This document shows, one piece after another, positions 5,333 to 41,441 of a stretch of 64,000 nt of DNA. The DNA lies in the IMG/VR virus record IMGVR_UViG_3300037258_000171, positions 1-64,000 of that record. The stretch is one strand, 5' to 3'. A program made the position numbers and the translations under genes. Each line of letters opens with the position of its first letter. Position 1 is the stretch's first letter. The notes beneath the pieces were generated by a model. That model did no database searches. It saw only the letters and a list, made by a program, of their open reading frames with translations, and had not been told where the DNA came from. The DNA is from a virus.

Positions 5333-5923
5333 GTGAGCGACGACGTCACCGAGTGCAAGGCCCTGATGGCCGCCCTGAAGACTGCCCGCTCGCCGGAGGG
5401 CGACGGGAACGAGACTGCGGCCCCGGCCGCGGGAACCGAGGAGGAAGCCGTGAGCGACACCACCACGGAGGCCGCGGCTATGGCCCCGGCGTCCGTCACC
5501 CTGACCCAGGAGCAGTTCGACGCCCTGCTGGCCCGCACGGCACCTGCGGCCACGGAGGCTGCCCCGGCGGCCCCCGCGGCCACCGAGACCGCCGCCCCGG
5601 CTGCTGCCGTGGCGGAGACCGCGGACCAGCGCATGGCACGCCTCAGCGCCCTGGCCGATGCCAAGGTCGCCGAGGCCGCGCAGAAGGACGGCCTTCAGGT
5701 CACCGAGACCGACGAGCAGATCATGGAGCGCCTCATCGAGGAGCGCCTCGTCCCGCTGCGCCAGGCCGCCGCCGAGAAGACCGGCGCCGGCACAGCCCGC
5801 AAGGGACTGCTGGACAACATCGCCGAGCAGGCGCCCGGCACGACCAAGGTGCTCCAGGAGTGCAGCGGCGCCGACCTCTCCGCGCTGGCCGCCGCCGCGT
5901 ACCCGGCTCCCGGGCGCCGGTAG
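5333..5923 (+). CDS. Scaffold protein
   Basis: A 196-residue Ala/Glu/Pro-rich protein with a low-complexity middle (residues ~75-95) and a charged helical C-terminal half, typical of phage scaffolds that guide procapsid assembly and are then cleaved or expelled. It sits between protease and major capsid genes. Start is GTG 5333. An in-frame second GTG at 5450 begins with the same GTGAGCGAC bases and has a much better ribosome site (GAGGAGGAA), so a shorter 157-residue form may be made. Sequence identity to other scaffolds is usually low, so this call rests on position and composition. Confidence 0.7.
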   Translation: MSDDVTECKALMAALKTARSPEGDGNETAAPAAGTEEEAVSDTTTEAAAMAPASVTLTQEQFDALLARTAPAATEAAPAAPAATETAAPAAAVAETADQRMARLSALADAKVAEAAQKDGLQVTETDEQIMERLIEERLVPLRQAAAEKTGAGTARKGLLDNIAEQAPGTTKVLQECSGADLSALAAAAYPAPGRR

Positions 5924-5934
5924 CCACGCCGGGC

Positions 5935-5989
5935 GGCACCAGCCGTCCCCCTGATCCACCCTGACCGCCAGCGCCCCCGCGCTGGTGCC
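5935..5989 (+). promoter_or_regulatory. Alternative hairpins in the scaffold-capsid gap
   Basis: Two competing inverted repeats occupy the 123-base gap before the capsid gene: GGCACCAG (5935-5942) with CTGGTGCC (5982-5989), and CCAGCGC (5968-5974) with GCGCTGG (5979-5985). Because they share bases, the RNA can form one or the other. This could be a weak terminator, an RNA-processing site or an element that raises capsid translation. Role is inference. Confidence 0.4.
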
Positions 5990-6046
5990 TCCCATGGCGG
6001 CAACGGCCGATCACCGAAACCCACCGTCACGGAAGGCCATACAGCC

Positions 6047-7441
6047 ATGTCCGAAATCCGCGAGGCGCTGACCGCCGCCGGCGCAGCCCCGTTCGTCCCG
6101 AAGATCATCGACCCGCTGCTGGTCGAGTACCAGCGCCGGTTCGCCCCCTGGTGCCGGGCCATCCCCACCAAGAAGACGAACTCCACCACGTACTACTTCA
6201 ACCAGCGCACCGTGAACGTCTCGGGCGGCGCTGTCCCGGACGGCGGCGCACGGCCCGTCAGCACCAGCACGTACGTGCAGCAGGGCGCGACCATGGGCCA
6301 CGTCCAGGCGGTCGGCTCCGTCACCGGCTACGCCCAGGCCGTCACCCAGGAAGTCATCCAGAACCTGAGGGCCACTGAAATCAACGGGGCCATCAAGGGC
6401 TACTACTGGGACGTCGAGACCTTCATGGGCTGGGGCAACGCCGCCAGCACCACCTACAACCCCGGTGCCGCGCAGCCGCAGTTCGACGGCCTCGACACGC
6501 AGATCAGCACCTTCAGCGGCGGCGGGAACCAGAACGTCATCGACTACGCCGGCAAGTCGCTGTCCCTGGCGACCCTGGACGAGCTGATCGTCATGGTGTC
6601 GGGCAACGCCGCCGAGCCCGTCGCGGACTCCTCGTGGATGTTCGTGATGTCGGTGGCGGCCGAGGCGCGGATCGGGCAACTGCTGGTCAACCAGCAGCGC
6701 TACACCGACGTTGAGGTGGAGGCCGGCCTGATCGTCGGCTCCTACAAGCGCGTCCCGCTGGTGCCGTCCTCGTTCCTGTCCACGCTGGGCTACCAGGTCG
6801 GCACGGTGAGCGCCGGCACCGCGACCACGGGCGGCTCGCTTCCCGACTCCACCACGTACAAGTACCAGGTCAGCGCGATCATCGCCCGCCAGGGCGAGAT
6901 CCTGCCGTCCCCCGAGGTCAGCCAGGCAACCGGGTCGGGCAGCGGCGCCAACACCATCACGCTGACCCTCACCCCGCCGGCCGGGCAGGACGGCCTCGGC
7001 CCGCAGCTGTACAAGGTGTGGCGCACGGCGGCGGGCGGCGCGGCGAACAGTGAGACGTTCCTCGGCTACGTGGACTCCACTGTCGGGCTGGCCAGCGACG
7101 GCGTGACGCCGGTCGTGACCAACCAGATCGTGGACACGGGCACCGCGCTGGTCCCGCAGCAGTCGAGCGGGTCGCTGGTGCCGGGCACGCTGCCGACGTC
7201 CTACTTCGGGACGAACGCAAGCATGCTGCCACCGGGCGCCGGCTCCGAGAACATCTATCTCATGAGCCGCGACCCCGGCAACATCGTGCGCCCGTTCGTG
7301 AGGGAGGCAGAAATGCTGGACGTCTACCCCACGACCAGCTCGCCCGACTCGCTGCCGTTCGCGATCATGGGTGATACGTGCCTGGCGGTTCGTACCCCTA
7401 AGTTCTGCGGGCGCGCTTATCGCGTCGGCGTCGCCGCCTGA
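6047..7441 (+). CDS. Major capsid protein with inserted beta domain
   Basis: A 464-residue protein in capsid position, preceded by a strong site (CACGGAAGG). Residues 1-245 and about 370-464 read as an HK97-fold capsid shell protein, ending with IVRPFVREAEMLDVYPT and TCLAVRTPKFCGRAYRVGVAA. Between them, residues ~251-366 form a Gly/Thr-rich insertion resembling a fibronectin/Ig-type domain (SLPDSTTYKYQVSAIIARQG ... LYKVWRTAAGG), which would project from the capsid surface. The N-arm LTAAGAAPFVPKII is echoed in the small gene at 1384. A strong terminator follows the gene. Identity as capsid is from position, length and C-terminal pattern. Confidence 0.85.
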   Translation: MSEIREALTAAGAAPFVPKIIDPLLVEYQRRFAPWCRAIPTKKTNSTTYYFNQRTVNVSGGAVPDGGARPVSTSTYVQQGATMGHVQAVGSVTGYAQAVTQEVIQNLRATEINGAIKGYYWDVETFMGWGNAASTTYNPGAAQPQFDGLDTQISTFSGGGNQNVIDYAGKSLSLATLDELIVMVSGNAAEPVADSSWMFVMSVAAEARIGQLLVNQQRYTDVEVEAGLIVGSYKRVPLVPSSFLSTLGYQVGTVSAGTATTGGSLPDSTTYKYQVSAIIARQGEILPSPEVSQATGSGSGANTITLTLTPPAGQDGLGPQLYKVWRTAAGGAANSETFLGYVDSTVGLASDGVTPVVTNQIVDTGTALVPQQSSGSLVPGTLPTSYFGTNASMLPPGAGSENIYLMSRDPGNIVRPFVREAEMLDVYPTTSSPDSLPFAIMGDTCLAVRTPKFCGRAYRVGVAA

Positions 7442-13333: not shown

Positions 13334-14374
13334 TCAGAACAGCGCGTCCTGCGCCTCTGCGGGCACCGTCGGCCGCTGCCTTCTTGACTCAAGACGGAGT
13401 ACCTGCGCCTGAAGTTCCTGGATCTTGGCCGTCAGGTCCGAGACCTTCCTGCGGTTGTCGCCCTGCTGGCGGGGTGTCGCCCACTGGACGTTCCCGGGCT
13501 CGTAGTTGCCGTCGTTGTCGATCCGGTCAAGAGACGTCCCCGGCGGCTTCGGGCCGACGTCGGCAACAAAGTTGTACAGACCCTCAGGCGATCCCTGCCA
13601 GCGCTCGCACACCGTGATGCCCCGGCCGCCGTAGTGGAGCCAGGAAGCGTTGCGCGGGTTAGTGGTGCGCTCGATCATGGCGTACCACGCCTTGTACACC
13701 GGGTCATCGCTCATCCCGTGAACCGTCCGCAGTTCCCGCCGCAGGCATCCACACGACCGAACCTGCGCAGTGCGCAGGTTGATAGCCTTGACGTCCTTCA
13801 GCGTGCCGCACGCACAGCGGCAATTCGCACGGTCGGTGGAGTACGCGACGTCCTCCAGGACCGTCAGGCGCTCGTAGACCTCGCCGGCTTTCATGTAGAC
13901 GCGGCCTGCGGCTCCCATGCGACCCCTCCCGGCACCGCACGACTTGCTCGCCCCGTAGACGAGCGACGACACGGCCACGAGACGCTCTGTGCCGCACTTA
14001 CAGCGACAGAGAATCCGGCCCCTGGTCGTCGCGGAAGCCTCTAACGTGGTCCACTCGCTGAAGGTGTCGCCGACGGCGATCCCTGCAGCACTTCTGCGGG
14101 GGGCTGCCTCCCCCGGGTCGCCGTCCTTGCGTTCTCGGGCCTTGTGCATGACGCACATCGCCCCGCGCGGGGGCTGCGGGCAGCCCTCCACGCTGCAGCG
14201 CTTCGGCTCGCGCGGAACCTGTGGATGCTTCAGAGCCCGGAAGGCCCTGGTGCGCGCCCGGCGGCACTCGTCCGTCTTGCGGCAGATGCCGACCTTGTTG
14301 CTGCGGATAAGGCGCTCACCGCAGACCGAGCAGTACCGGTCCGCTACGGGCAGCGCAAACATAAGATCGTTCAT
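13334..14374 (-). CDS. Zinc-finger HNH-type homing endonuclease (antisense)
   Basis: 346 residues encoded against the tail operon. Three Cys-rich modules are visible: CSVCGERLIRS (N-term), then two copies of a CRCKCGTE ... KSCG / CRCACGTL ... RSCGC module (~residues 120-150 and 185-215). The C-terminal nuclease-like region contains WLHYGGRGITVCERW and SLDRIDNDGNYEPGNVQWAT followed by NRR, a signature of phage HNH-like endonucleases. A coiled coil (~residues 310-330) ends the protein. Standalone homing endonucleases commonly invade intergenic sites of phage structural operons. Likely role: spreading of its own locus by cleaving phages that lack it. Confidence 0.75.
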   Translation of the reverse strand: MNDLMFALPVADRYCSVCGERLIRSNKVGICRKTDECRRARTRAFRALKHPQVPREPKRCSVEGCPQPPRGAMCVMHKARERKDGDPGEAAPRRSAAGIAVGDTFSEWTTLEASATTRGRILCRCKCGTERLVAVSSLVYGASKSCGAGRGRMGAAGRVYMKAGEVYERLTVLEDVAYSTDRANCRCACGTLKDVKAINLRTAQVRSCGCLRRELRTVHGMSDDPVYKAWYAMIERTTNPRNASWLHYGGRGITVCERWQGSPEGLYNFVADVGPKPPGTSLDRIDNDGNYEPGNVQWATPRQQGDNRRKVSDLTAKIQELQAQVLRLESRRQRPTVPAEAQDALF

Positions 14375-25024: not shown

Positions 25025-27952
25025 ATGGGGGGCGTTTTGAGCCAGTCGCGCTACTACGTTTCGACGGCGTCCGCCACTACGCTCCCCTCCGGCTGCGGGG
25101 CGTCGGACACGACACTCACCATCGCCGCCATGCCGGGCACCTGGCCCGCGCAGTACCCCTACGGACTGCTGGCGGACTGGGGTCTTTCCACCCAGGAGGT
25201 CATGCTCGTCACGGGGGCGCCGACCGGCGGCGGCCCGTTCGTCATCCCGGTCACGCGCGGGGCAGACGGGACCACCGCGCAGTCCCACGCCACAGGCGCC
25301 GAGGTCGTGCACGGGGTCAGCGGCGAGGACTTCAACCAGTGGTCAGCGTTCATCGACAGCCTGACCGGCACTGCGGCGTCCAGCTTCACGCAGCGGTCGA
25401 ACAACCTCTCCGACCTCGCCAGCGCCGGGACTGCCAGGACGAACCTGGGGCTGGGCACGGCGGCCACCCAGGCATCCTCCGCGTTCGACGCTGCCGGGGC
25501 TGCCTCGGCGGCAGTGGCCACGGAGACCACCCGCGCCGAGGCCGCGGAGGCCCTGCTGGCGCCGCTAGCGTCCCCCGGCCTGACCGGAACACCAACCGCA
25601 CCGACGAAGACGGCCCTGACGAGCTCCACGGCCCTCGCCACCACGGCCTACGCAGATGCAGCCGTGGGCGCGGAGACCACGCGGGCGCAGGCGGCCGAGG
25701 CGGCCAAAACCAACCTGCTCACCAAGACCGCCGTCAAGACCACCACGTACACCGCTGCCGCAGGCGACTACGTGGCGTGCGACTCGACCTCGGGCACGTT
25801 CACCGTCACGCTGCCGAACGCCCCGGCAGTCGCCACGGTGGTCGGGGTCAAGCTCGTCACCTCGGCGGCGTCCGTCAATGCCGTCACGGTGGCGTGCGCC
25901 GGGTCGGACGTGCTGAACAAGTCCGGTGGCTCGACCACTTACACGCTGAGCCTGCTCAGCCAGGGCGCCACCTTCCAGTACGGAAGCGGCGGCATCTGGC
26001 TTGTCCAGAACGATGACCTGCCGCTGGGGCAGATGGATGCCCGGTACGCGAACGTGTTCTCGCCGCTGGCGTTCGGCGCGGCGGGCAACGGCACCACCGA
26101 CGACACGACCGCCCTGCAGAACTGCGCTGCCGCGGCAGCCGCAGCCAAGGGCGTCATGGACCTCGGCACCCGGACTTTCAAGACCACCTCGGCGATCACC
26201 GTCAGCAACGACCTCCACGTATGCGGATCCGGGCTAAATGGCGGCGTAATCACCAACGGCGCCTCCGATCTGTTCTCCGTGTCGGGAACAGTGACCAGTG
26301 TCAACTTCATCAGCTGCTCCCTGTTCGCGTCGGCCGGGCATGTCTTCAACTGCGCGAGCGGCGCGAACACCGGCTTCTGGAACATCCTGAACTGCAACCT
26401 GGGACAGGCGGGGGGCAGCTTCAGCATCTGGTACATGCCCAGTGGCAACTACATCGACATGCTCGTTGGTGATAACTGCTTCATGACGTGTGCTGCTACT
26501 GCCTCAGTGTCCCCCTGGTACATAGTCTCGACCGGCGGCAGCGCATGTAACAGCAACACCTGGCGGCGCATGCGGATGACTGCGAATCACGCCCAGGTTC
26601 CCTGGTTCCACATCGAGAATCAGAGTGGCGTATCTGTCGATAATCAGTTCTCCGGGATAACCGGTGAGGTGTGCGATGGCGGCCTCATTCAGCTGAGATC
26701 CTGCCTGGGCGCAACAATGGAGAACTTCTGCGCTTATGACACGACTGTTTTCACCGGGCACCTGTACGACATCGGAACTCACGTCGGCGCCGGCCAGTCG
26801 GGGAACATAACGATCCGCAATTCAGGCCGGCGCGGCGGAGCCCTCGGCTCCCCGGCGTGGGCCGCGACCACCTCCTACGCTGCGGGGGTCTACGTCCACC
26901 CCACAGTGTGGAACGGCCACGTCTACAAGTGCACCGTCGCCGGAACTTCAGGCGGCAGCGAGCCCACGTGGATCACCACCGGGCCGCCGAACACTCAGAC
27001 GGACGGCGGCGTCACCTGGGAGGATCTCGGCAGCGGGTTCGCTCAGACCGTATATGACGTCAATACTGACGGCAACGTGACGGCGCTGATCCTGGAGAAC
27101 GCCGGGCCGCAGAGCGGTAGCGCGTCGTATAACCTTCCCGCTCGCACGGGCGGCGCCGAGGCGACGACGACGATTCTCGGGCAATCCGGCGCGGTGGTCC
27201 CCGGCGTAGTGTCCACGATGAACGAGGTCGCTATCTCATCGGCGACCACCCTTGTCACGTCGGATCTGGGCAAGATGCACGCCTGCGCCCTGTCCTCGGC
27301 GGGGTACACATTCACGCTGCCTGCCCCCACGTTCTTCACTGGCCAGCAGATAGGCGTGCGGGTCACTCCGGCAAGCACCAAACTGCTGACGCTCGCCACC
27401 GCTGCGGGGAACATCGACGGCGCCTCGACCCGGATCATGTGGGCCGGGGAGTCGGCGATCCTGGAGTCGGACGGCACGAACTGGGTCAAGATCGCGGGCA
27501 AGACGCTGCCCATGCAGGGCGTCATGGTCGGCACCAGCACGAGCACCGCCACCGGCACGGTAACCAACGTCCCGCTCGGCGCCACCTACATTGACAACAC
27601 CGGGCTGATGTGCGACCCGACGACGGGCAAGACGATTACCGTCCAGCGTCCCGCTACCTACTCCGTGCTGGGACGGATTGAGTGGAACACAATGCCGGCC
27701 GCCAGCAACCGCACCATCACGGTCTGCTACAAGAACGGCAGCGGCAGCACCGTGGTTGCCCAGGATGAGCGCACCGCCGGGAACGCAAGCTCGCCCTGCA
27801 TCAGTGCCGTGGGCACCGTCACGTTCGCTGCTAGCGACACCTGCACGCTGAACGCCTTCCAGAACAGCGGCTCATCAGTCAGCACCGTGGGGGGCTCCAC
27901 CCCGTTCGGCGCCGGAACGATCATGTCGCTGACTGAGATCCCCGCCTGGTAG
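25025..27952 (+). CDS. Tail fibre/spike with beta-helix and carbohydrate-binding insertion
   Basis: 975 residues. The N-terminus (SRYYVSTASATTLPSGCG) is the usual virion-attachment start of actinophage fibres. Residues ~118-145 hold a phage tail repeat (NNLSDLASAGTARTNLGLGT), then a trimerising helix region. FGAAGNGTTDDTTALQ (~350) opens a pectate-lyase-type beta-helix to ~600. An inserted module (about 610-675, AWAATTSYAAGVYVHPTVWN) looks like a carbohydrate-binding CBM5/12 unit. The C-terminal ~110 residues form a beta tip. Likely receptor-binding spike with possible polysaccharide depolymerase activity. Start could instead be TTG 25037 (LSQSRYY), which has the better ribosome site GGGGGG. 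Confidence 0.75.
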   Translation: MGGVLSQSRYYVSTASATTLPSGCGASDTTLTIAAMPGTWPAQYPYGLLADWGLSTQEVMLVTGAPTGGGPFVIPVTRGADGTTAQSHATGAEVVHGVSGEDFNQWSAFIDSLTGTAASSFTQRSNNLSDLASAGTARTNLGLGTAATQASSAFDAAGAASAAVATETTRAEAAEALLAPLASPGLTGTPTAPTKTALTSSTALATTAYADAAVGAETTRAQAAEAAKTNLLTKTAVKTTTYTAAAGDYVACDSTSGTFTVTLPNAPAVATVVGVKLVTSAASVNAVTVACAGSDVLNKSGGSTTYTLSLLSQGATFQYGSGGIWLVQNDDLPLGQMDARYANVFSPLAFGAAGNGTTDDTTALQNCAAAAAAAKGVMDLGTRTFKTTSAITVSNDLHVCGSGLNGGVITNGASDLFSVSGTVTSVNFISCSLFASAGHVFNCASGANTGFWNILNCNLGQAGGSFSIWYMPSGNYIDMLVGDNCFMTCAATASVSPWYIVSTGGSACNSNTWRRMRMTANHAQVPWFHIENQSGVSVDNQFSGITGEVCDGGLIQLRSCLGATMENFCAYDTTVFTGHLYDIGTHVGAGQSGNITIRNSGRRGGALGSPAWAATTSYAAGVYVHPTVWNGHVYKCTVAGTSGGSEPTWITTGPPNTQTDGGVTWEDLGSGFAQTVYDVNTDGNVTALILENAGPQSGSASYNLPARTGGAEATTTILGQSGAVVPGVVSTMNEVAISSATTLVTSDLGKMHACALSSAGYTFTLPAPTFFTGQQIGVRVTPASTKLLTLATAAGNIDGASTRIMWAGESAILESDGTNWVKIAGKTLPMQGVMVGTSTSTATGTVTNVPLGATYIDNTGLMCDPTTGKTITVQRPATYSVLGRIEWNTMPAASNRTITVCYKNGSGSTVVAQDERTAGNASSPCISAVGTVTFAASDTCTLNAFQNSGSSVSTVGGSTPFGAGTIMSLTEIPAW

Positions 27953-29177
27953 CCCAGCCGAATGTGAACAGCAGGACCGCGAGGACCACTACCGCTGACC
28001 CCGTGCCGCCCGAGTTGACCGTGGCGGCGACCAGCCAGGGCAGCATCACAGCGGCCATGACGGGGTAGCGCCGCATCCGCCACGCCGCCGTCACCATCAG
28101 GACCGCGAGCACGGCAACGCCGGCCTCGCCGAAGTCGAACAGGACGCTGACCCACACCGCGTTCGGCTCCAGCGCCGTCGTCCCGCCGCCGCCGGGGTAC
28201 ATGGCCCTGAAGTACGTGGTGTCAGCGGACGGCCCGGCGCCGAGGCGCATCCGGCCGCTGTCCCTGGTGATGCTGATGATCTCGCTCGTCCCGGTGAGCC
28301 GGGTGTTCGTCCCCTCAATCCCCCCTGTCTCGGCGGACTGGATGCCCGACACGAGCCGGCCGGCGGCGATCCGGGCGGGGCTGCCGCTGGCCATCAGCGC
28401 CTGCGCGTCCGCGTGCTGCACCAGGACGACCCCGGCGGGGATGACGACCACCAGGGCCGCGAGCAGCAGCGCGCGGTACCACCACGACGTCACCAGCGCC
28501 GCGTAAAGCGGCAGGGTCACCGCCAGCACCAGGATGCATACCGGGGAGTCCGCCAGCACCACGCCGGCCACCGCAAGCGCCAGCCACGCCCGCGCCCGGC
28601 GGCGCAGGCCCAGCAGGGCAACCATCGCCAGGACCGGCGCCCACGCGGACGGCTCGCCCAGCGTCCCGTACATCCGCAGCGCCCCGTGCGCGTCGTTCAC
28701 CAGGACCAGGTGCCCGGTCAGGCGGCTGAACGCGCACGTCACCACGCCTGCCGCCAGGGCCAGCGTCGCCGCCCTCCAGATGACCCGCTCCAGGATGCCG
28801 GCGTCGAAGAACAGCGCCGCGTAGACCGCCACGGCGATCACCGTCCCGGCCCACACCGCTGCCCCGCCGTCGTAGGACCGCGCGGTCCCGGCTAGCTCGG
28901 GCCAGGGACTGAATGCCAGGTAGGCGATCACGATCAGCGCCAGCACGGCAGTGACCGCGAAGACCCGCTCCACGGCACGCTCCGGCAGCGGGCCGCGCAC
29001 CAGCATCACGAACGCCAGCACGGCGAGGCCGGTCACCTGGAGCTTCACGACGCCGGGCAGCACGCCCACGGTCAGCAGCGGCAGGACAAGCAGCCAGGTC
29101 GCGGCGGTTCGCATCCGCGAGTCCCGCGCCTCGGGTAACGCGGCCAGCCGGGGAACCTGCGGGACCATGACGCTCAT
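27921..29177 (-). CDS. Polytopic membrane protein, O-antigen polymerase/ligase-like
   Basis: 418 residues with about ten transmembrane helices. A large polar loop (about residues 262-345) contains TGTSEIISITRDSGRMRLG-type sequence followed by LEPNAVWVSVLFDFGEAGVA; the order R, LGxGPxxD, PN, then GxxGV resembles the periplasmic loop and following helix of Wzy/WaaL polymerases and ligases. It is encoded opposite to the tail spike and overlaps its 3' end by 32 bases. Such a phage gene would remodel the cell-surface polysaccharide, a form of lysogenic conversion that removes the phage receptor. The fold class is moderately sure; the substrate is unknown. Confidence 0.6.
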   Translation of the reverse strand: MSVMVPQVPRLAALPEARDSRMRTAATWLLVLPLLTVGVLPGVVKLQVTGLAVLAFVMLVRGPLPERAVERVFAVTAVLALIVIAYLAFSPWPELAGTARSYDGGAAVWAGTVIAVAVYAALFFDAGILERVIWRAATLALAAGVVTCAFSRLTGHLVLVNDAHGALRMYGTLGEPSAWAPVLAMVALLGLRRRARAWLALAVAGVVLADSPVCILVLAVTLPLYAALVTSWWYRALLLAALVVVIPAGVVLVQHADAQALMASGSPARIAAGRLVSGIQSAETGGIEGTNTRLTGTSEIISITRDSGRMRLGAGPSADTTYFRAMYPGGGGTTALEPNAVWVSVLFDFGEAGVAVLAVLMVTAAWRMRRYPVMAAVMLPWLVAATVNSGGTGSAVVVLAVLLFTFGWATRRGSQSAT

Positions 29178-29287
29178 CGCGCGATCCTAGCTGTCACCAC
29201 CCGCTCACGCTCCGTAATCCCCGCACCCCGCAAGCCCCCCGGGGGCCACGACCAGGCCGCCAGCGGCAATCACCGAGGGGGCGACCG

Positions 29288-29641
29288 TTGCACTGGCTTC
29301 CCCTCCTGGCCTTGTCGGTCAGCCCGGTGCCCGCAATCGCGGAGGGCATCTCGCCAGCCAGCAATGCGGCCGGGGATGTTGTGACCTACCTGCTCGGATT
29401 TGGGCCGATCGGGATCGGGATCGTCCTCTACCAGCTCGGCCTCATCGTCCCGAAGCCGGTCCTGTCAGCAGTCAGGGCCGATGCGGAGAAGTGGCGGCAG
29501 GCATTCGAGGACGAGCGGGCAGCCCACGCGACGACACGGGAGTCCCTCGCCGTCGCCAATGACCGGGCGGAGGCCGCCGTCGAGGCGGCGCGGGTAACCA
29601 CCAAGCTGCTGGAAGTGGTCGAGCAGCGGAGAGATTCCTGA
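29288..29641 (+). CDS. Membrane protein of the lysis cassette with coiled coil
   Basis: 117 residues from a TTG start behind CCGAGGGGGCG. It has a signal-like N-terminus (LHWLPLLALSVSPVPAIAEG), one clear transmembrane helix at about 38-60 (LGFGPIGIGIVLYQLGLIV), and a C-terminal coiled coil (residues 70-115). As the first gene before other small membrane proteins and the endolysin it may be a holin partner or antiholin. It is on the opposite strand to the polymerase-like gene. Confidence 0.6.
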   Translation: MHWLPLLALSVSPVPAIAEGISPASNAAGDVVTYLLGFGPIGIGIVLYQLGLIVPKPVLSAVRADAEKWRQAFEDERAAHATTRESLAVANDRAEAAVEAARVTTKLLEVVEQRRDS

Positions 29642-29642
29642 C

Positions 29643-29861
29643 ATGCGCCTGCGCCGCAAGCACGCGAAGCTGCCGGACCCGGCCGGAGCGGCGGCAGAGG
29701 CGATCATCTCGCGCGAGCGTGCCGAGGCGGAGCTGGAGCGGCAGCGAGCCACCGCGCACGCCGAGCACGTCGATGTCGTGGCCCCGCTGCGCCGGATGCG
29801 CGAGCGCAACCACCTCGCCGAGATGTTCATCCGGACGATCCAGGAGGGGTACCGGCATTGA
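29643..29861 (+). CDS. Small coiled-coil protein (DUF7620-like)
   Basis: 72 residues, highly charged and helical, ending in LRRMRERNHLAEMFIRTIQE. This C-terminal R-E-x-N-H-x-A pattern is typical of a short protein found in many actinophage lysis cassettes. It begins one base after the previous stop and overlaps the next gene by TTGA. No activity is known; a role in timing lysis is inferred from context. Confidence 0.6.
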   Translation: MRLRRKHAKLPDPAGAAAEAIISRERAEAELERQRATAHAEHVDVVAPLRRMRERNHLAEMFIRTIQEGYRH

Positions 29862-30184
29862 CGCAGGCCCAGGTACTCCACGACGTCAGCGAATGGGTAA
29901 TTCAGGCTGCCTTCTGGTGTTCCATCGCATTCCCGGTCTGGTACACGATCTGCGCTCCCTGGTGGCGCTACCCGGTCGGCCGGGCCATCGTCGCACTGGA
30001 CTCGGCCATCGCGCTCGCCACGGGGCCTACGACCATCGGGCTGATCTTCGGGGCGTCGGTCGTAGCCAGCTCGTTCTTCTCCTGGCTGACCGTCTTCGCG
30101 TTCGGCTGCATCCCGGTCATCACCATCTACCGGGGCGTCGTCGTCTGGCAGGTCCAGCGCCGGGGCGGCAGCGATGGGGGCTGA
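29858..30184 (+). CDS. Holin-like membrane protein (copy 1)
   Basis: 108 residues, TTG start in a TTGA overlap and a good site (CAGGAGGGG). Three hydrophobic segments: about 10-33, 44-60 and 62-92. The motif WWRYPVGRAIVALDSAIALA is echoed in the next protein (WFRTQVGRTLVTTNAAISLA), so the two are paralogues of an actinophage holin-like family. Two such proteins could be holin and antiholin that together time membrane opening. Confidence 0.65.
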   Translation: MTQAQVLHDVSEWVIQAAFWCSIAFPVWYTICAPWWRYPVGRAIVALDSAIALATGPTTIGLIFGASVVASSFFSWLTVFAFGCIPVITIYRGVVVWQVQRRGGSDGG

Positions 30185-30521
30185 CCTCGCTACCGCATCG
30201 GTCATCGCCGCGTTCATCGCCCCGCTGCTGCTGATCTGCGTCTATACGGTCACAGCCCCCTGGTTCAGAACTCAGGTCGGCCGGACGCTGGTCACGACCA
30301 ACGCGGCTATCTCCCTGGCCCTGCTGCCGCCGTTCGTCCACCGCGTCAGCGGAGGCCCGGCGGCTGTCAGCGCGGCGTTCACCGTTTTCCAGGCGGCCAC
30401 CTGGGGATTCCTGGCGCTCGTGCTTGCCCGCATGTCGTGGGTCATCATCGCCACCCAGCAGCGCGGTCGGCGCGAGGCCCGGGACACCCTCAGCGCCGGG
30501 CAGGAGAGGCGCACTACCTGA
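30174..30521 (+). CDS. Holin-like membrane protein (copy 2)
   Basis: 115 residues with three hydrophobic helices (about 8-27, 42-55, 62-92) and a basic C-terminus. It overlaps copy 1 by 11 bases and shares its W-x-R-x-x-V-G-R motif. Probably acts in the host membrane at lysis. Which copy forms the lethal pore cannot be told from sequence. Confidence 0.65.
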   Translation: MGADLATASVIAAFIAPLLLICVYTVTAPWFRTQVGRTLVTTNAAISLALLPPFVHRVSGGPAAVSAAFTVFQAATWGFLALVLARMSWVIIATQQRGRREARDTLSAGQERRTT

Positions 30522-30655: not shown

Positions 30656-31075
30656 TTGCCGCTCTGGCTGCTGCACTTCCTCGGCATCGACAACGTCTCC
30701 GGCGCTGCCTATGCCTGGTGGAGCGGGGCCGGATCGGACATATCGGAACTCGCCGTGGTCGGCGCGATCCTCGGCCTCCTGCGCAAGCACAACTGCGCGG
30801 TGCGCCATTGCTGGCGGATCGGGCGGCATGTCGTGCCCGGCACTGATCATGCCTGCTGTGCGCGGCACGCGCCGGGCGGCGCTCCCACCCATGACGACGT
30901 GATCGCTGACCACCTGGCTGGCGTGACGGCTCACGATGCCGCTGAGTCTGTGCCAGCCGCTCCCGCGGACGCCGACCTGGGCCGGAAGCTCGACACGCTC
31001 CACGCCGATCTCAGCGACCTGAGTCACACGCTCCGGGCAGTCCTGCTCACCCAGCACGAGGGGAGGCAGCCATGA
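30656..31075 (+). CDS. Membrane protein with Cys/His motif, lysis cassette
   Basis: 139 residues from TTG 30656, three bases after the preceding stop. The N-terminal region LHFLGIDNVSGAAYAWWSG, one membrane helix (SELAVVGAILGLLRKH), then CAVRHCWRIGRHVVPGT with more Cys/His residues matches a membrane protein found beside endolysins in many actinophages. The C-terminus is a short coiled coil. It overlaps the endolysin gene by ATGA. Role unknown, possibly lysis control. Confidence 0.65.
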   Translation: MPLWLLHFLGIDNVSGAAYAWWSGAGSDISELAVVGAILGLLRKHNCAVRHCWRIGRHVVPGTDHACCARHAPGGAPTHDDVIADHLAGVTAHDAAESVPAAPADADLGRKLDTLHADLSDLSHTLRAVLLTQHEGRQP

Positions 31076-31941
31076 CCGTTCTCGGGAAGCTCCTGGCAGA
31101 CGCCCGATCCTGGCTCCAGGGCCACGGCGAGCACACGGAGGCAGCCGTGCAGATCACAGTGCCCGGCCGCTGCCACTTCGACGGCGAGGGCAAGCTCCGC
31201 GGCGACATCAAGATCAGCTACAACAAGCCGTTCCCGACAAAGAACGGCGATTACGGATCGGGCGCGATGGATGGCGTCCTGATGCACACGATGGTCGGGA
31301 ACCTTCCGGGCACCGTCGCTGTCTTCAATGAGGACCGCGGCGCGGACTCAGCGAGCGCCACGTTCGGAATCGCACAGGACGGCAGCGTCGTCCAGTTCGG
31401 CCCGGTCGGCAAGGGCTGGTATGCGTGGCATGCCGTCGCGGCCAACCGAACGTACTACGGCATCGAGCACGCCGACAATGCGAACCCGGACAACCCGCTG
31501 ACCGCTGAGCAGATCGCAGCGTCGGCGCAGATCGTGGAGGCGCTGTCCGCCTTCGCCGGCTTCCCGCTGCGGCTCGCCAACGCCCCGGGCGAGAAGGGCT
31601 ATGGCACTCACTTCATGGGCGGCGCGGCCTACGGCGGGCACTCGTGCCCCGACCTGCCGCCGAAGCACGTCCGGTCGCAGCAGCGCGCCGCGATCCTCAC
31701 CATTGCCGCAGCCATCAGGAAGGGACTCACCGTGATCACGGTCAAGGCAGACGGGAAGACCTCCCTCCACGCCCTCGCGGCTAAGCACGGGATGTCAGCC
31801 AGCCACCTGCTGCGGGTGACCGCCGTGGAGGACAAGAGCTTCCCCGACGACGTGGCCGCGTTCATCAACGACGTGTTCGCCGGGCGGACCTCCGCGACCG
31901 GGCCGGTTCCGGCAGGCTGCGAGTTCAAGGCACCGAAGTAG
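31072..31941 (+). CDS. Endolysin: N-acetylmuramoyl-L-alanine amidase with LysM-like end
   Basis: 289 residues. The Amidase_2/PGRP fold is shown by MDGVLMHTMVG (zinc ligand H72), ASATFGIAQDGSVVQF, NRTYYGIEHAD and GGHSCPD (zinc ligands H190 and C192). The enzyme cuts the bond between muramic acid and the peptide stem. Residues ~221-265 (ITVKADGKTSLHALAAKHGM) resemble a LysM-type wall-binding unit. No signal peptide is seen, so release needs the holins encoded upstream. Overlaps the membrane gene by ATGA and the antisense gene at its 3' end by 17 bases. Confidence 0.9.
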   Translation: MTVLGKLLADARSWLQGHGEHTEAAVQITVPGRCHFDGEGKLRGDIKISYNKPFPTKNGDYGSGAMDGVLMHTMVGNLPGTVAVFNEDRGADSASATFGIAQDGSVVQFGPVGKGWYAWHAVAANRTYYGIEHADNANPDNPLTAEQIAASAQIVEALSAFAGFPLRLANAPGEKGYGTHFMGGAAYGGHSCPDLPPKHVRSQQRAAILTIAAAIRKGLTVITVKADGKTSLHALAAKHGMSASHLLRVTAVEDKSFPDDVAAFINDVFAGRTSATGPVPAGCEFKAPK

Positions 31942-35049: not shown

Positions 35050-35262
35050 CTACAGGACTGCGGCGGCAACCCGCTCGTGTCTTACGCTGCAGAGAGACGA
35101 GCGGTATCTGAGCTGACTCCTGCACTTCAGCCCCCGTCCCGGCCGCACCACAGACCAGGTGCAAATGCAGGTGCCGGGGACCAGGAGAGTCGGCATCTCC
35201 ACGGTGCCGGCGGGTACCTGGCCGATGCCCTTGCGGAGGTCGAACACGCGGGCGGTGGTCAC
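35050..35262 (-). CDS. Small hypothetical protein downstream of RNA ligase
   Basis: 70 residues, GTG start in a GTGA overlap with the RNA ligase stop. It reads VTTARVFDLRKGIGQVPAGT, with a hydrophobic centre (TLLVPGTCICTWSV) and a basic end. The coupling suggests translation, but no domain is seen. Confidence 0.45.
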   Translation of the reverse strand: MTTARVFDLRKGIGQVPAGTVEMPTLLVPGTCICTWSVVRPGRGLKCRSQLRYRSSLCSVRHERVAAAVL

Positions 35263-35966
35263 GACGCGCCGACCTGCTCGCGCGGACGCCCTGAGCGGCG
35301 CCCCTGCGCCCGGAAGTCCTTGCCCTTCAGCTTGAAGATCAGTCGCTCGCCCCGGTTGTCGTACAGCGGCTCCACGGTCCGCGCGACGATCCCCTCGGCC
35401 ATGAACTCCGGGTCGAACTCCTGCGCCGCGCCCGAGGCAAAGCCGTCCCGCACGAGGGCCACGATCTCGGCCAGCGCCATCGGCTCGCCGCCGTTCAGCA
35501 GCGGCACGCGGGGGATGCCCAGCTTCTCCGCGGTCTCCGTGACCGCTCCATCGGACAGGTAGGTGCCATCGGCCACGGCCACGTCAAACAGCGTGAAGCC
35601 CTGGTCCGGGCGGTAACGTCCGCCACTCTGGATCTTCGCCCCGTAGCCCTCGCCGTAGAGCGTGAGAGCGTCCAGGTCGTGCTCGCGCATGATGGCCAGC
35701 ACCTCCGGGGCCACGCGGCCGGCGAGGTCGCTGCAGTGCGCCAGGAGCTTCGGCGGGATCGACGCCTCATCGGTCTTGCCCGCCACGGTGTACGTCGTGC
35801 CGTCCTTGATGCGACTGAACCCGATCCGGATGTTCGTGCCGTCTACCTTCTCCGTCACCAGCCAGCCCGCGATGGTGCCGAACACCGGGCGGCGCAGCTT
35901 ACTCACGTCCACCCGGAAGTCCTCGTCCCGGTCGAATAACGTCTCGATCTTGCTGTACGGCTTCAC
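35259..35966 (-). CDS. ATP-dependent RNA ligase, Rnl2 type
   Basis: 235 residues. Nucleotidyltransferase motifs are clear and in order: motif I VTEKVDGTNIRI (adenylated K40), motif III LYGEGYGAK, motif IV EFMAEGIVART, motif V RLIFKLKGKDF. The size and spacing fit T4 Rnl2-like RNA ligases, which seal nicks in RNA. In phages these enzymes repair tRNAs cut by host anticodon nucleases. It lies between a terminator and a small gene. A second, unrelated RNA ligase (RtcB) is encoded at 40287. Confidence 0.85.
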   Translation of the reverse strand: MKPYSKIETLFDRDEDFRVDVSKLRRPVFGTIAGWLVTEKVDGTNIRIGFSRIKDGTTYTVAGKTDEASIPPKLLAHCSDLAGRVAPEVLAIMREHDLDALTLYGEGYGAKIQSGGRYRPDQGFTLFDVAVADGTYLSDGAVTETAEKLGIPRVPLLNGGEPMALAEIVALVRDGFASGAAQEFDPEFMAEGIVARTVEPLYDNRGERLIFKLKGKDFRAQGRRSGRPREQVGAS

Positions 35967-37435: not shown

Positions 37436-37464
37436 GTAGCACACCTAAAGTGCACGCGGGTCAA
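37436..37464 (-). promoter_or_regulatory. Promoter of excisionase gene with overlapping operator
   Basis: On the minus strand TTGACC (37464-37459), a 17-base spacer and TGCTAC (37441-37436) form a sigma-70-type promoter. Its -35 box touches the palindrome ACATCAG-A-CTGATGT at 37464-37478. A repressor on that palindrome would block excisionase transcription. Confidence 0.6.
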
Positions 37465-37478
37465 CATCAGACTGATGT
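37464..37478. promoter_or_regulatory. Palindromic operator between repressor and excisionase
   Basis: ACATCAG-A-CTGATGT has perfect 7-bp arms about one central base. It lies 14 bases before the repressor start and against the excisionase -35 box. TAGGCT (37478-37483) may be the repressor -10 box, which would also give a leaderless message. Confidence 0.6.
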
Positions 37479-37491
37479 AGGCTTCACCGGT

Positions 37492-37941
37492 ATGGCAGAG
37501 GATCCGTTGCTGATGGCCGATACCTGGCTCATCCGCAACATCAAGCAGGAGCGCGAAGCGCGCGGACTGTCCCAGGGGGCGCTCGCTGCCCAGATGCACG
37601 ACCTCGGATTCAAGTTCGCGCAGCAGACCATCGGCCGCATCGAGAAGGGCCAGCGGACCGTCAGCGGCGGCGAGGCCCTGGCCTTCGCCCGGCTGTTCGG
37701 GCGGGAGCTGAACGACCTGTTCCAGGCGCCCGACGTGACGAAGTACCAGGCCGACCTGCGGCACAAGACGCGGAACCTGCAGGAGACCGAGGCGTACGCC
37801 AACGGCGCGATGATCAGCCACCAGACGGCCGCCGCCGAGCTCAGCAGCCTCGTCGCAGACCTCCGGGCCGGTCCGCACGCCGCGGCTCTGGCCGAGGAGC
37901 TGGACGCCGCCGAGAAGGCACTCAAGGGAGGGCGGCCATGA
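37492..37941 (+). CDS. XRE-family repressor
   Basis: 149 residues. Residues ~13-72 are an XRE/Cro-CI helix-turn-helix: LIRNIKQEREARGLSQGALA, then FAQQTIGRIEKGQRTVSGGE and LARLFG-like close. A helical C-terminal half (residues 80-149) likely dimerises. It overlaps the integrase by ATGA, so both are translated together. It is the best candidate for the lysogeny repressor. Start ATG 37492 is used; the upstream in-frame ATG 37450 would cross the operator. Confidence 0.75.
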   Translation: MAEDPLLMADTWLIRNIKQEREARGLSQGALAAQMHDLGFKFAQQTIGRIEKGQRTVSGGEALAFARLFGRELNDLFQAPDVTKYQADLRHKTRNLQETEAYANGAMISHQTAAAELSSLVADLRAGPHAAALAEELDAAEKALKGGRP

Positions 37942-39317
37942 CCGGCACCCGCAAGGACAACGGCGAGTCCTGGGTAGGCACCGAGAAGAACGCGCGCGGC
38001 TACTACGAGGCCAGTGTGTGGATGGGCGTGAAGGGCAACGGCCGGCCGGACCGGCGCCACGTCCAGCGCAAGAGCCAGAAGGCGGTCAAGGAGCGGGTCA
38101 AGGAACTGGAGCGCAAGCGTGACCTCGGCCAGTCAGTCAAGGCCGGGAAGGCGCCCACCGTCCAGCAGATGCTTGAGCGGCACCTGACCGTCGTGCTCCC
38201 CCAGCGCGGAGTGTCGCCGACGACCATCCGCGGGTACCGGTCGCAGTGCCGGACCGACATCTTCCCCCGGTGGGGTGCGCAGCGCATCGACCGGCTCCAG
38301 GCCGAGGACATCGAGGAAGGCCTGGCCGACATGCTTGCCGAGGGCAAGTCAGCGGCAACCGTCGTCAAGGCCAGGGCGATCCTGTCGGCCGCCCTGGCGG
38401 ATCAGGTGAAGCGCGAGCGCATCGCCCGCAACCCGTGCGCCATCATCCGGCCGACCAAGATCCCCGACCGGAAGATGGCGTCACTGTCCGAGGACGAGGC
38501 GATGCGCGTGCTGGACGCCGCGGCGAAGCACGTGAACGCGCCGCGGTGGTCGCTGGCGATCCTGCGGGGCCTGCGGCAGGGCGAGGTGCTGGGACCGCGG
38601 TGGGACGACCTGGACCTGAACGCCGGGCGCCTGCTGATCCACCGGCAGCTGCAGCGGCTCACCTGGTCGCACGGATGCGCCGACCAGGACCGCGCGCAGT
38701 ACGCCGACATGAACGATGAGAAGAAGCGCAAGGCGCGGCTGGCCATCGAGCACGCCTGCGCGGCACCGCACTGCAAGGTGAAGCCGTGCAAGAAGGTCAA
38801 GGGGAAGTGCCGGCTGCACACCCGCGAGTGCCCGCCGCCGTGCCCGGCGGACTGCACCGACCACGCCCGGCTGTGCCCGCACCGCAAGGGCGGCGGCCTG
38901 GTGTTCCGCGAGATCAAGGAGAACCGCCAGAAGACCGTCCGGCTGACCGCGCCGCTCATCGCCGAGCTGAAGGGCCACCGTGACGCCCAGTTCCTTCAGA
39001 AGGAGACGACGGGGGAGTTGTGGGATGACCACGGGCTGATCTTCTGCCGGTGGAACGGGAAGCCGGTTGACCCGCGCCGGGACTACGGCGAGTGGCAGCA
39101 GATCCTGAAGGAGGCCGGCCTGCCCCGGCACCGGCTGCACGCGCTGCGGCACTCGGCCGCGTCAATCGCGCTGGACGGCGGGGCGGACATCGCCGTCGTC
39201 CAGGAGATGCTGGGCCACTCCGATATCCGGATGACGCGCCGCTACGCCCATCCCTCGGACGCCCGGCATGACGAGATGGGCCGCCAGATGGACCGTCTCC
39301 TGGGGGGCGGGAAATGA
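37938..39317 (+). CDS. int: Tyrosine integrase with Cys-rich insertion
   Basis: 459 residues. N-terminal arm-binding region (~1-75), SAM-like core-binding domain (~76-170) and catalytic domain with R213 (LRGLRQGE), K332, H401-x2-R404 (HALRH), H427 (LGHS) and Y436 (RRYAH). Between R213 and K332 the protein carries an insertion (residues ~245-315) with nine cysteines (C247-C313) and several His, suggesting bound zinc. The enzyme recombines attP with attB in a tRNA-Thr gene. It is coupled to the repressor upstream and lies 86 bases before the att core. Confidence 0.9.
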   Translation: MTGTRKDNGESWVGTEKNARGYYEASVWMGVKGNGRPDRRHVQRKSQKAVKERVKELERKRDLGQSVKAGKAPTVQQMLERHLTVVLPQRGVSPTTIRGYRSQCRTDIFPRWGAQRIDRLQAEDIEEGLADMLAEGKSAATVVKARAILSAALADQVKRERIARNPCAIIRPTKIPDRKMASLSEDEAMRVLDAAAKHVNAPRWSLAILRGLRQGEVLGPRWDDLDLNAGRLLIHRQLQRLTWSHGCADQDRAQYADMNDEKKRKARLAIEHACAAPHCKVKPCKKVKGKCRLHTRECPPPCPADCTDHARLCPHRKGGGLVFREIKENRQKTVRLTAPLIAELKGHRDAQFLQKETTGELWDDHGLIFCRWNGKPVDPRRDYGEWQQILKEAGLPRHRLHALRHSAASIALDGGADIAVVQEMLGHSDIRMTRRYAHPSDARHDEMGRQMDRLLGGGK

Positions 39318-40286: not shown

Positions 40287-41441
40287 TCAGCCTTTGTAGT
40301 TGAACACCTGGTGCAGTGTGTGCTCGATCGCGGCGAGGTCGCGCTGGTCTGCCATGACCTTGTCCACGTCCTTGTACGCCTCAGGGTGCTCATCCACCAG
40401 GTCCCCGGCGCGGTCGGAGTTCCACGTGCGGTCGCCCATCGCCAACGTGAGCGACTCGGCAGTCAGCTTCCGCCGGGCATCACCGCGCGACATCCTGCGC
40501 CCGGCTCCGTGGGAGCAGGAGTCATAGGACGCCGCGCTGCCGAGGCCGCGGACGATGTAGGAGCGCGTACCCATCGACCCGGGGATGATCCCCATGTCCC
40601 CGCTGGCCGCCTTGATGGCGCCCTTCCGGGTGATCCACATGTCCCGGCCGTGGTGGTGCTCCATAGCCGTGAAGTTGTGATGGCAGTTCGTGGTGGCGAC
40701 GACGGCGCCGCATCCGACTACCTCGAACAGCGAGCGGGCGATGGCTGAGTTCATCCTCGCCCGCGACGCCATCGCATAGCGCTGGCACCAGAGCATGTCC
40801 TCGATGTAGGCCGTGAACTCCGGCGTGCCCTGCACCAGGTAGGCGAGGTCGGGATCCTCCAGTTCGATGAACCACTGCTTCATCAGCTTGCGGGCCTTGT
40901 CGATGTGGGTCTTCGCGAGCTGGTTGCCGATGCCGCGCGACCCGCTGTGCAGGACAGTCCAGACGTGGTCCCGCTCATCCAGGCAGACCTCTACGAAGTG
41001 GTTGCCCGATCCGAGGGTGCCGAACTGGCAGCCGACTGTGTTGACCTGCTTGCCGGTCAGGTCGCTGTGCGGGTCTCCGAGCTCGCCGAGGGCGGAGTCC
41101 GTGGCCGGGTCATCGTGGCCCTTGCCGACGCCGGCCGGGATCCGCTGCTCAACCAGCGGCATCAGGGCGGCGAGGTTGTCGGGCAGGTCTTCCGCCTTCA
41201 GCGTGGTCTCGCTGGCAACCATCCCGCAGCCGATATCAACCCCGACCGCGGCGGGGATTATGGCTCCGCGCGTCGGGATGACAGAGCCGACCGTGGACCC
41301 GATGCCGTAATGCGCGTCAGGCATGAGCGCGACGTGGCCCTGGATGAACGGCAGGCGCGAGGTCCGGGCCGCCTGCTCGACAGTGCCGGACTCGATGTCG
41401 CTGGCCCATGACAGCAGGGCCGGGGCTAGCTTCTCGGGCAT
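40287..41441 (-). CDS. rtcB: RtcB-type RNA ligase
   Basis: 384 residues with the full RtcB signature: MPDAHYGIGSTVGSVIPT, GVDIGCGM (metal Cys72), GSGNHFVEV, LHSGSRGIGN, NCHHNFTAMEHHHG and SYDSCSHGAGRRMSR with the guanylated His. RtcB joins 2',3'-cyclic phosphate or 3'-phosphate RNA ends to 5'-OH ends using GTP and Mn2+, the chemistry needed to reseal tRNAs cut by anticodon nucleases. No archease gene is recognised in the window. It is the last gene of the leftward early train and is followed by a hairpin. Confidence 0.93.
   Translation of the reverse strand: MPEKLAPALLSWASDIESGTVEQAARTSRLPFIQGHVALMPDAHYGIGSTVGSVIPTRGAIIPAAVGVDIGCGMVASETTLKAEDLPDNLAALMPLVEQRIPAGVGKGHDDPATDSALGELGDPHSDLTGKQVNTVGCQFGTLGSGNHFVEVCLDERDHVWTVLHSGSRGIGNQLAKTHIDKARKLMKQWFIELEDPDLAYLVQGTPEFTAYIEDMLWCQRYAMASRARMNSAIARSLFEVVGCGAVVATTNCHHNFTAMEHHHGRDMWITRKGAIKAASGDMGIIPGSMGTRSYIVRGLGSAASYDSCSHGAGRRMSRGDARRKLTAESLTLAMGDRTWNSDRAGDLVDEHPEAYKDVDKVMADQRDLAAIEHTLHQVFNYKG

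Follow-up and report, generated by a model that had tools for sequence, protein, structure and literature searches.

A divergent WaaL/Wzy-type membrane protein gene facing the tail spike gene of an actinophage, a candidate for lysogenic conversion

The virus record IMGVR_UViG_3300037258_000171 is 64,926 bp long, and its positions 1–64,000 constitute the window, the whole stretch of DNA analysed here; no near relatives of the record were found in the phage collection. On the minus strand of the window, antisense to the late operon, lies a gene (27921–29177) for a polytopic membrane protein of 418 amino acids, P0001. Several tests assign this Wzy/WaaL-like protein, on grounds of both ancestry and fold, to the WaaL/Wzy_C (GT-C_B) superfamily, as a divergent subfamily whose activity is a prediction only. 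The gene is fairly probably a lysogenic-conversion cargo, or moron, of a temperate actinophage, and its product would change a surface glycan.

The open reading frame (ORF), which begins with an ATG, is a real gene. Its GC content by codon position (0.71/0.54/0.93, the last value being the third-position GC) follows the coding pattern of the window's genes, and by this comparison it surpasses all overlapping ORFs on both strands. Coding is further supported by a chromosomal homologue in an actinobacterial genome, L101, the one strong match among 394 genomes of the class, which aligns with residues 33–411 of P0001, a span of 379 residues, at 31% identity (E=1.2e-32). The tail spike ORF, 25025–27952 on the plus strand, runs convergently, and the two 3′ ends share 32 bases (27952−27921+1), exactly the head-on overlap described in an original prediction made from the DNA letters. 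The same prediction proposed ten helices, which is approximately right: nine hydrophobic segments have a Kyte–Doolittle mean of 1.4 or higher, and more than ten helices are present in the AlphaFold2 models.

The best Pfam family of L101 is Wzy_C (PF04932; 3.3e-5, 24.1 bits, sub-threshold), and its sole NCBIfam match is the polysaccharide-biosynthesis family VpsF (2.2e-4, also sub-threshold). A profile of P0001 and L101 searched against 396 genomes of the phylum retrieved one further protein (E=8.2e-5), itself a Wzy_C member above the cut-off with 39.9 bits. A six-frame search of 14 phage records with the Wzy_C profile gave a single match, the P0001 gene (E=9.3e-4); the matched stretch, 28107–28583 on the minus strand, covers profile positions 3–148 of 149 at 14.5 bits, below the cut-off. 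Proteins of the Wzy_C type occur in 46 of 60 Actinomycetes genomes. Relatives of P0001 itself were found neither by tblastn against 50,697 phage records nor by exact-word scans of viral and genome contigs, and the P0001+L101 alignment profile found nothing among PDB sequences. Five weak matches (E 9e-4 to 8e-3) in Streptosporangiaceae genomes were set aside as looking like chance, the nearby frames being unrelated proteins or not gene-like.

Profile–profile comparison strengthens the assignment. The P0001+L101 profile matched that of 30 actinobacterial Wzy_C proteins in hhalign with a probability of 90 (E=1.6e-6), close to the 88.7 obtained for an accepted Wzy_C protein, L106, in the same test; the controls, a reversed profile and FtsW, gave 3.6 and 0.3, respectively. 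This result leans on L101, as P0001 alone reached a probability of 4.4, which is not significant. P0001 alone was nevertheless distinguished by HMMER: none of 1000 local shuffles attained its score against the Wzy_C profile, whereas 472 of 1000 attained its score against FtsW, an ordinary outcome. Taken with hhalign, the shuffles indicate a relationship to accepted PF04932 members that goes beyond hydrophobicity.

The alignment also preserves positions that characterize the family. None of the 33 aligned sequences departs from Arg293, Gly313 or Gly315. Arg293 lies within TNTRLT (residues 290–295; 28293–28310 on the minus strand, coordinates computed from residue numbers) and is aligned with an Arg in 31 of 31 Wzy_C proteins; a profile alignment to the WaaL structure 7tpg places it at the Arg of VGVRLKIW, ahead of the G-x-G. 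Arg168 corresponds to an Arg in 23 of 31 other sequences, and the R..G..EPS, N-x-R and G-x-G-P elements and the C-terminal helix fall at Wzy_C motif positions.

Structure prediction is consistent with this picture. A first AlphaFold2 model, built on a two-sequence alignment, was uninformative (predicted local distance difference test, pLDDT, 41.2). A second model (pLDDT 66.5, predicted template modelling score 0.65) has WaaL 7tpg as its best PDB match (Foldseek E=4.9e-4, prob 1.00) and superimposes on it over 349 residues with Z=13.0 and a root-mean-square deviation of 5.9, well above unrelated entries. FtsW/RodA follow at Z 6.8–8.7, and other entries lie at about 6 and below. The modelled protein thus has the overall WaaL-type GT-C_B fold, with the caveat that Wzy_C proteins were among the sequences from which the model was built. 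Profile comparison, the kind of check that had been proposed for the Wzy/WaaL-like identity, found a Wzy_C relationship, with transporters far below WaaL in the fold comparison, and this part of the original prediction is supported jointly by L101, the sub-threshold Wzy_C match, the controlled hhalign result, the shuffles and the fold. A search of BFVD found no viral structural homologue.

The position of the gene provides the second line of argument. The neighbouring protein, which had been proposed to be a receptor-binding spike, is supported as a pectate-lyase-like tail spike. It has a fibre-type N-terminus, a pectate-lyase-like region at about residues 310–414 that matches a pectin-lyase structure (E=2.9e-4), a segment resembling a carbohydrate-binding module of the CBM5/12 type below cut-off (residues 611–644), and a C-terminal part unlike its relatives. 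The homologous spike of the record L035 matches tail spike families. From these sequence features, a glycan is a plausible receptor. On the other side of the P0001 gene lies a plus-strand gene, 29288–29641, which is 61% identical in L035; there, about 170 bp with no inserted gene lie between the spike and the start of its homologue. The site is equally empty in L023, in which the spike abuts the next gene. The related phage record L022 carries a different gene at the same place between spike and next gene (L022:5958–7331, plus strand), likewise convergent with the spike; its product, P0002, is a polytopic protein of 457 amino acids with at least seven hydrophobic segments and no significant similarity to P0001. 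The spikes of L022 and the window have only a 119-residue stretch in common. An unrelated gene in the same place and orientation, together with the empty sites, shows that the spike-side site is an exchangeable cargo position, and the P0001 gene is therefore optional cargo.

P0002 could not be linked to Wzy_C, its score being matched by 66 of 1000 shuffles, and no link to the Wzy-like protein encoded beside its homologue was found either; it is thus not called a polymerase. Homologues of P0002 (31–33% identical) occur in three actinobacterial genomes, in one of them convergent with a Wzy-like gene (L109:21–1325, plus strand; NF046084, E=3.6e-10, below cut-off), and one genome, G460, harbours homologues of both P0002 and P0001. 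No polytopic gene was found close behind the tail genes in 15 actinobacterial genome loci downstream of a baseplate homologue, loci that say little because their tail ends are built differently. When viral contigs were searched with the N-terminal part of the spike and with a gene downstream of it, the L035 record was the sole match.

A promoter-like element precedes both occupants of the site. The hexamer TAGGAT (29184–29189, minus strand), a candidate −10 element of a leaderless promoter, is separated from the P0001 ATG by six bases, its first T being 12 nt before the start codon, and TAGCAT stands exactly six bases ahead of the ATG of the L022 gene. Among the 1444 ATGs of the window, nine have TANNNT in that range and one, that of P0001, has TAGNAT. 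In published work, leaderless genes of actinobacteria have a TANNNT box some 12 bp ahead of the start codon, and about 21% of transcripts are reported to be leaderless in Streptomyces coelicolor (PMC3160421, PMC4895711). As no promoter emerged from a scan for two-box sigma-70 sites, the call rests on the hexamer and its position; these suggest that P0001 may be expressed independently of the late operon.

A mechanism can be proposed on this basis. With a leaderless-type promoter of its own, on the other strand from the late genes, P0001 would be produced in the lysogen, at a time when the late operon is shut off. The protein may act on a polyprenyl-linked oligosaccharide at the outer face of the membrane, where it would either make a different linkage or compete with the host polymerase or ligase, so that the surface polysaccharide is changed. 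An altered glycan receptor would bring superinfection exclusion, less re-adsorption of progeny, or both; this is put forward as the likely benefit because the exchangeable site adjoins the spike and its occupants differ between phages with different spikes. Expression in lysogens, enzymatic activity, substrate and the link to the receptor are steps that we infer, and receptor-level superinfection exclusion by P0001 is offered as a plausible hypothesis; the original prediction, largely right about the protein, ran ahead of the evidence where function is concerned. A further, more speculative extension, which we regard as possible but doubtful, is that related actinophages keep the slot behind the spike and that different membrane proteins for glycan assembly replace one another there as the receptor-binding part of the spike changes, giving matched pairs of a spike for one glycan and a lysogen remodeller of it; the window's member would then represent a new WaaL/Wzy subfamily without the SRG Arg and the HN His.

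Several observations weigh against lysogenic conversion by a WaaL/Wzy-type protein and lend weight to other explanations. Direct scans of P0001 against Pfam, PHROGs, NCBIfam and PADLOC gave nothing above a curated cut-off: the Wzy_C score is under the 31.7 bits that Pfam demands, and the sole Pfam match up to E=1 is to an unrelated V-ATPase subunit (0.001, below cut-off). The second AlphaFold2 model, moreover, is not independent and is biased towards WaaL, because 14 of the 16 rows of its alignment are Wzy_C-type proteins. The lack of a curated family match would suit a different polytopic membrane protein, such as a transporter or a holin-like protein, that is Wzy-like by hydrophobicity only. 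Such an explanation is nonetheless very improbable: controls that keep hydrophobicity fail to reproduce the Wzy_C match, the motif positions and C-terminal helix align, and WaaL is the top fold match with transporters far below. The hhalign and shuffle controls are, in addition, independent of the model. A further point concerns two residues that the family usually conserves. Where 30 of 31 Wzy_C proteins have the Arg of the SRG motif, P0001 has Pro212 and L101 likewise a Pro, and the His of the HN motif (23 of 31, hence not universal) is found neither at nor next to its position in either protein. Activity may therefore be altered or lost, and P0001 might be a catalytically altered or inactive paralogue, dominant negative on the host polymerase or ligase, by which the glycan would be shortened or removed, not relinked. 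We consider this unlikely, given that the invariant Arg293, Gly313 and Gly315 suggest a remaining constraint on the active site and that the same changes in a chromosomal protein suggest a subfamily and not decay. Since the two residues are missing from P0001 and L101 alike, P0001 is read as a divergent subfamily; failing two usual PF04932 features, it is not filed as an ordinary O-antigen ligase or polymerase. Of the polymerase originally proposed, then, the superfamily identity stands, and catalytic activity appears uncertain from the motif.

The remaining objections concern the site. Only two related phages have a gene there, and P0002 is without a polymerase-family assignment. Two relatives with spikes have no gene at the site, and cargo genes commonly settle at the ends of convergent late genes. 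It is conceivable, if on balance rather unlikely, that P0001 is a membrane glycan enzyme that helps the lysogen otherwise, in desiccation, grazing or biofilm, unrelated to the spike, the site being merely the permissive end of an operon stretch. In both phages that have a gene at the site, however, that gene immediately adjoins the spike gene, and the two phages differ in the polytopic protein as well as in the spike, although two instances do not suffice for a decision. That P0001 serves to convert a surface glycan stays the preferred explanation.

Conversion by glycan polymerases is established for Gram-negative phages. The cassette of phage D3 combines a beta-polymerase with an inhibitor of the alpha-polymerase; P0001 would resemble it as a putative Wzy-type polymerase for lysogenic conversion of a receptor glycan, and differs in being a single gene, head-on to the spike, where D3 has a multi-gene cassette and a Gram-negative host. 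The seroconversion cassette of this Pseudomonas phage is mentioned in a study of an Escherichia coli temperate phage that modifies its O-antigen receptor (PMC8787464). A prophage Wzy of Acinetobacter baumannii, WzyPh1, changes the linkage of the host capsule (PMC9241936). It is what P0001 is proposed to be, a prophage-borne Wzy-type membrane polymerase that alters linkage in a host surface polysaccharide; unlike P0001, an actinophage protein that is divergent, lacks two motif residues and has a predicted effect, it acts on a Gram-negative capsule with a tested effect. In seroconversion of the P22 and Shigella-phage type (gtrABC, O-acetyltransferases) temperate phages also alter their own glycan receptor, but the enzymes modify side groups and are not polymerase or ligase homologues. 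Within the WaaL/Wzy_C family (PF04932; 7tpg), P0001 shares the predicted fold, the invariant Arg, the G-x-G and a glycine of the C-terminal helix, yet falls below the Pfam cut-off and lacks the SRG Arg and HN His. The SEDS proteins FtsW and RodA have the same broad fold in structure comparison, whereas sequence-profile similarity of P0001 to them does not exceed that of controls. The collections and literature searched yielded no earlier mention of an actinophage with a Wzy/WaaL-type gene; new here are the occurrence in an actinophage, a subfamily that lacks two of the motif residues, and a slot next to the spike with exchangeable contents.

The window holds portal, capsid, tail, amidase, DnaB, integrase and repressor-like genes. 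A tyrosine integrase (37938–39317) and a helix-turn-helix repressor-like protein (37450–37941), both on the plus strand, make the phage probably temperate, and the P0001 gene is in this sense the accessory cargo of a temperate phage, as expected of a lysogenic-conversion gene. Relatives of the capsid lie in Streptosporangiaceae, Streptantibioticus, Streptomyces, Kitasatospora and other actinobacterial genomes, so that the term actinophage, and with it the actinobacterial host originally proposed, is well supported. Further features of the window include an RNA ligase (PF09414, 65 bits; 35259–35966) and an RtcB-type tRNA-splicing ligase (PF01139, 369 bits; 40287–41441), both on the minus strand, which suggest a capacity for RNA repair. 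An HNH endonuclease gene (13334–14374, minus strand; PHROG 374, E=3.1e-59) lies antisense between tail genes. Two small membrane proteins (29858–30184 and 30174–30521, plus strand) look like tandem paralogues, cross-match in L035 and are possibly holin-related; the amidase (31072–31941) is encoded downstream of both. In the record L002 the capsid-to-adaptor genes are 99–100% identical to those of the window and the upstream genes about 80%, a shift that places a recombination breakpoint just upstream of the capsid gene (about 5923–6047).

If lysogenic conversion by P0001 is correct, receptor remodelling by prophages would extend to soil actinobacteria, a group in which phage receptors are little studied, and the spike encoded next to P0001 would offer a handle on which glycan serves as receptor. 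The missing motif residues would, in turn, provide a test of which residues the chemistry of WaaL and Wzy really needs.

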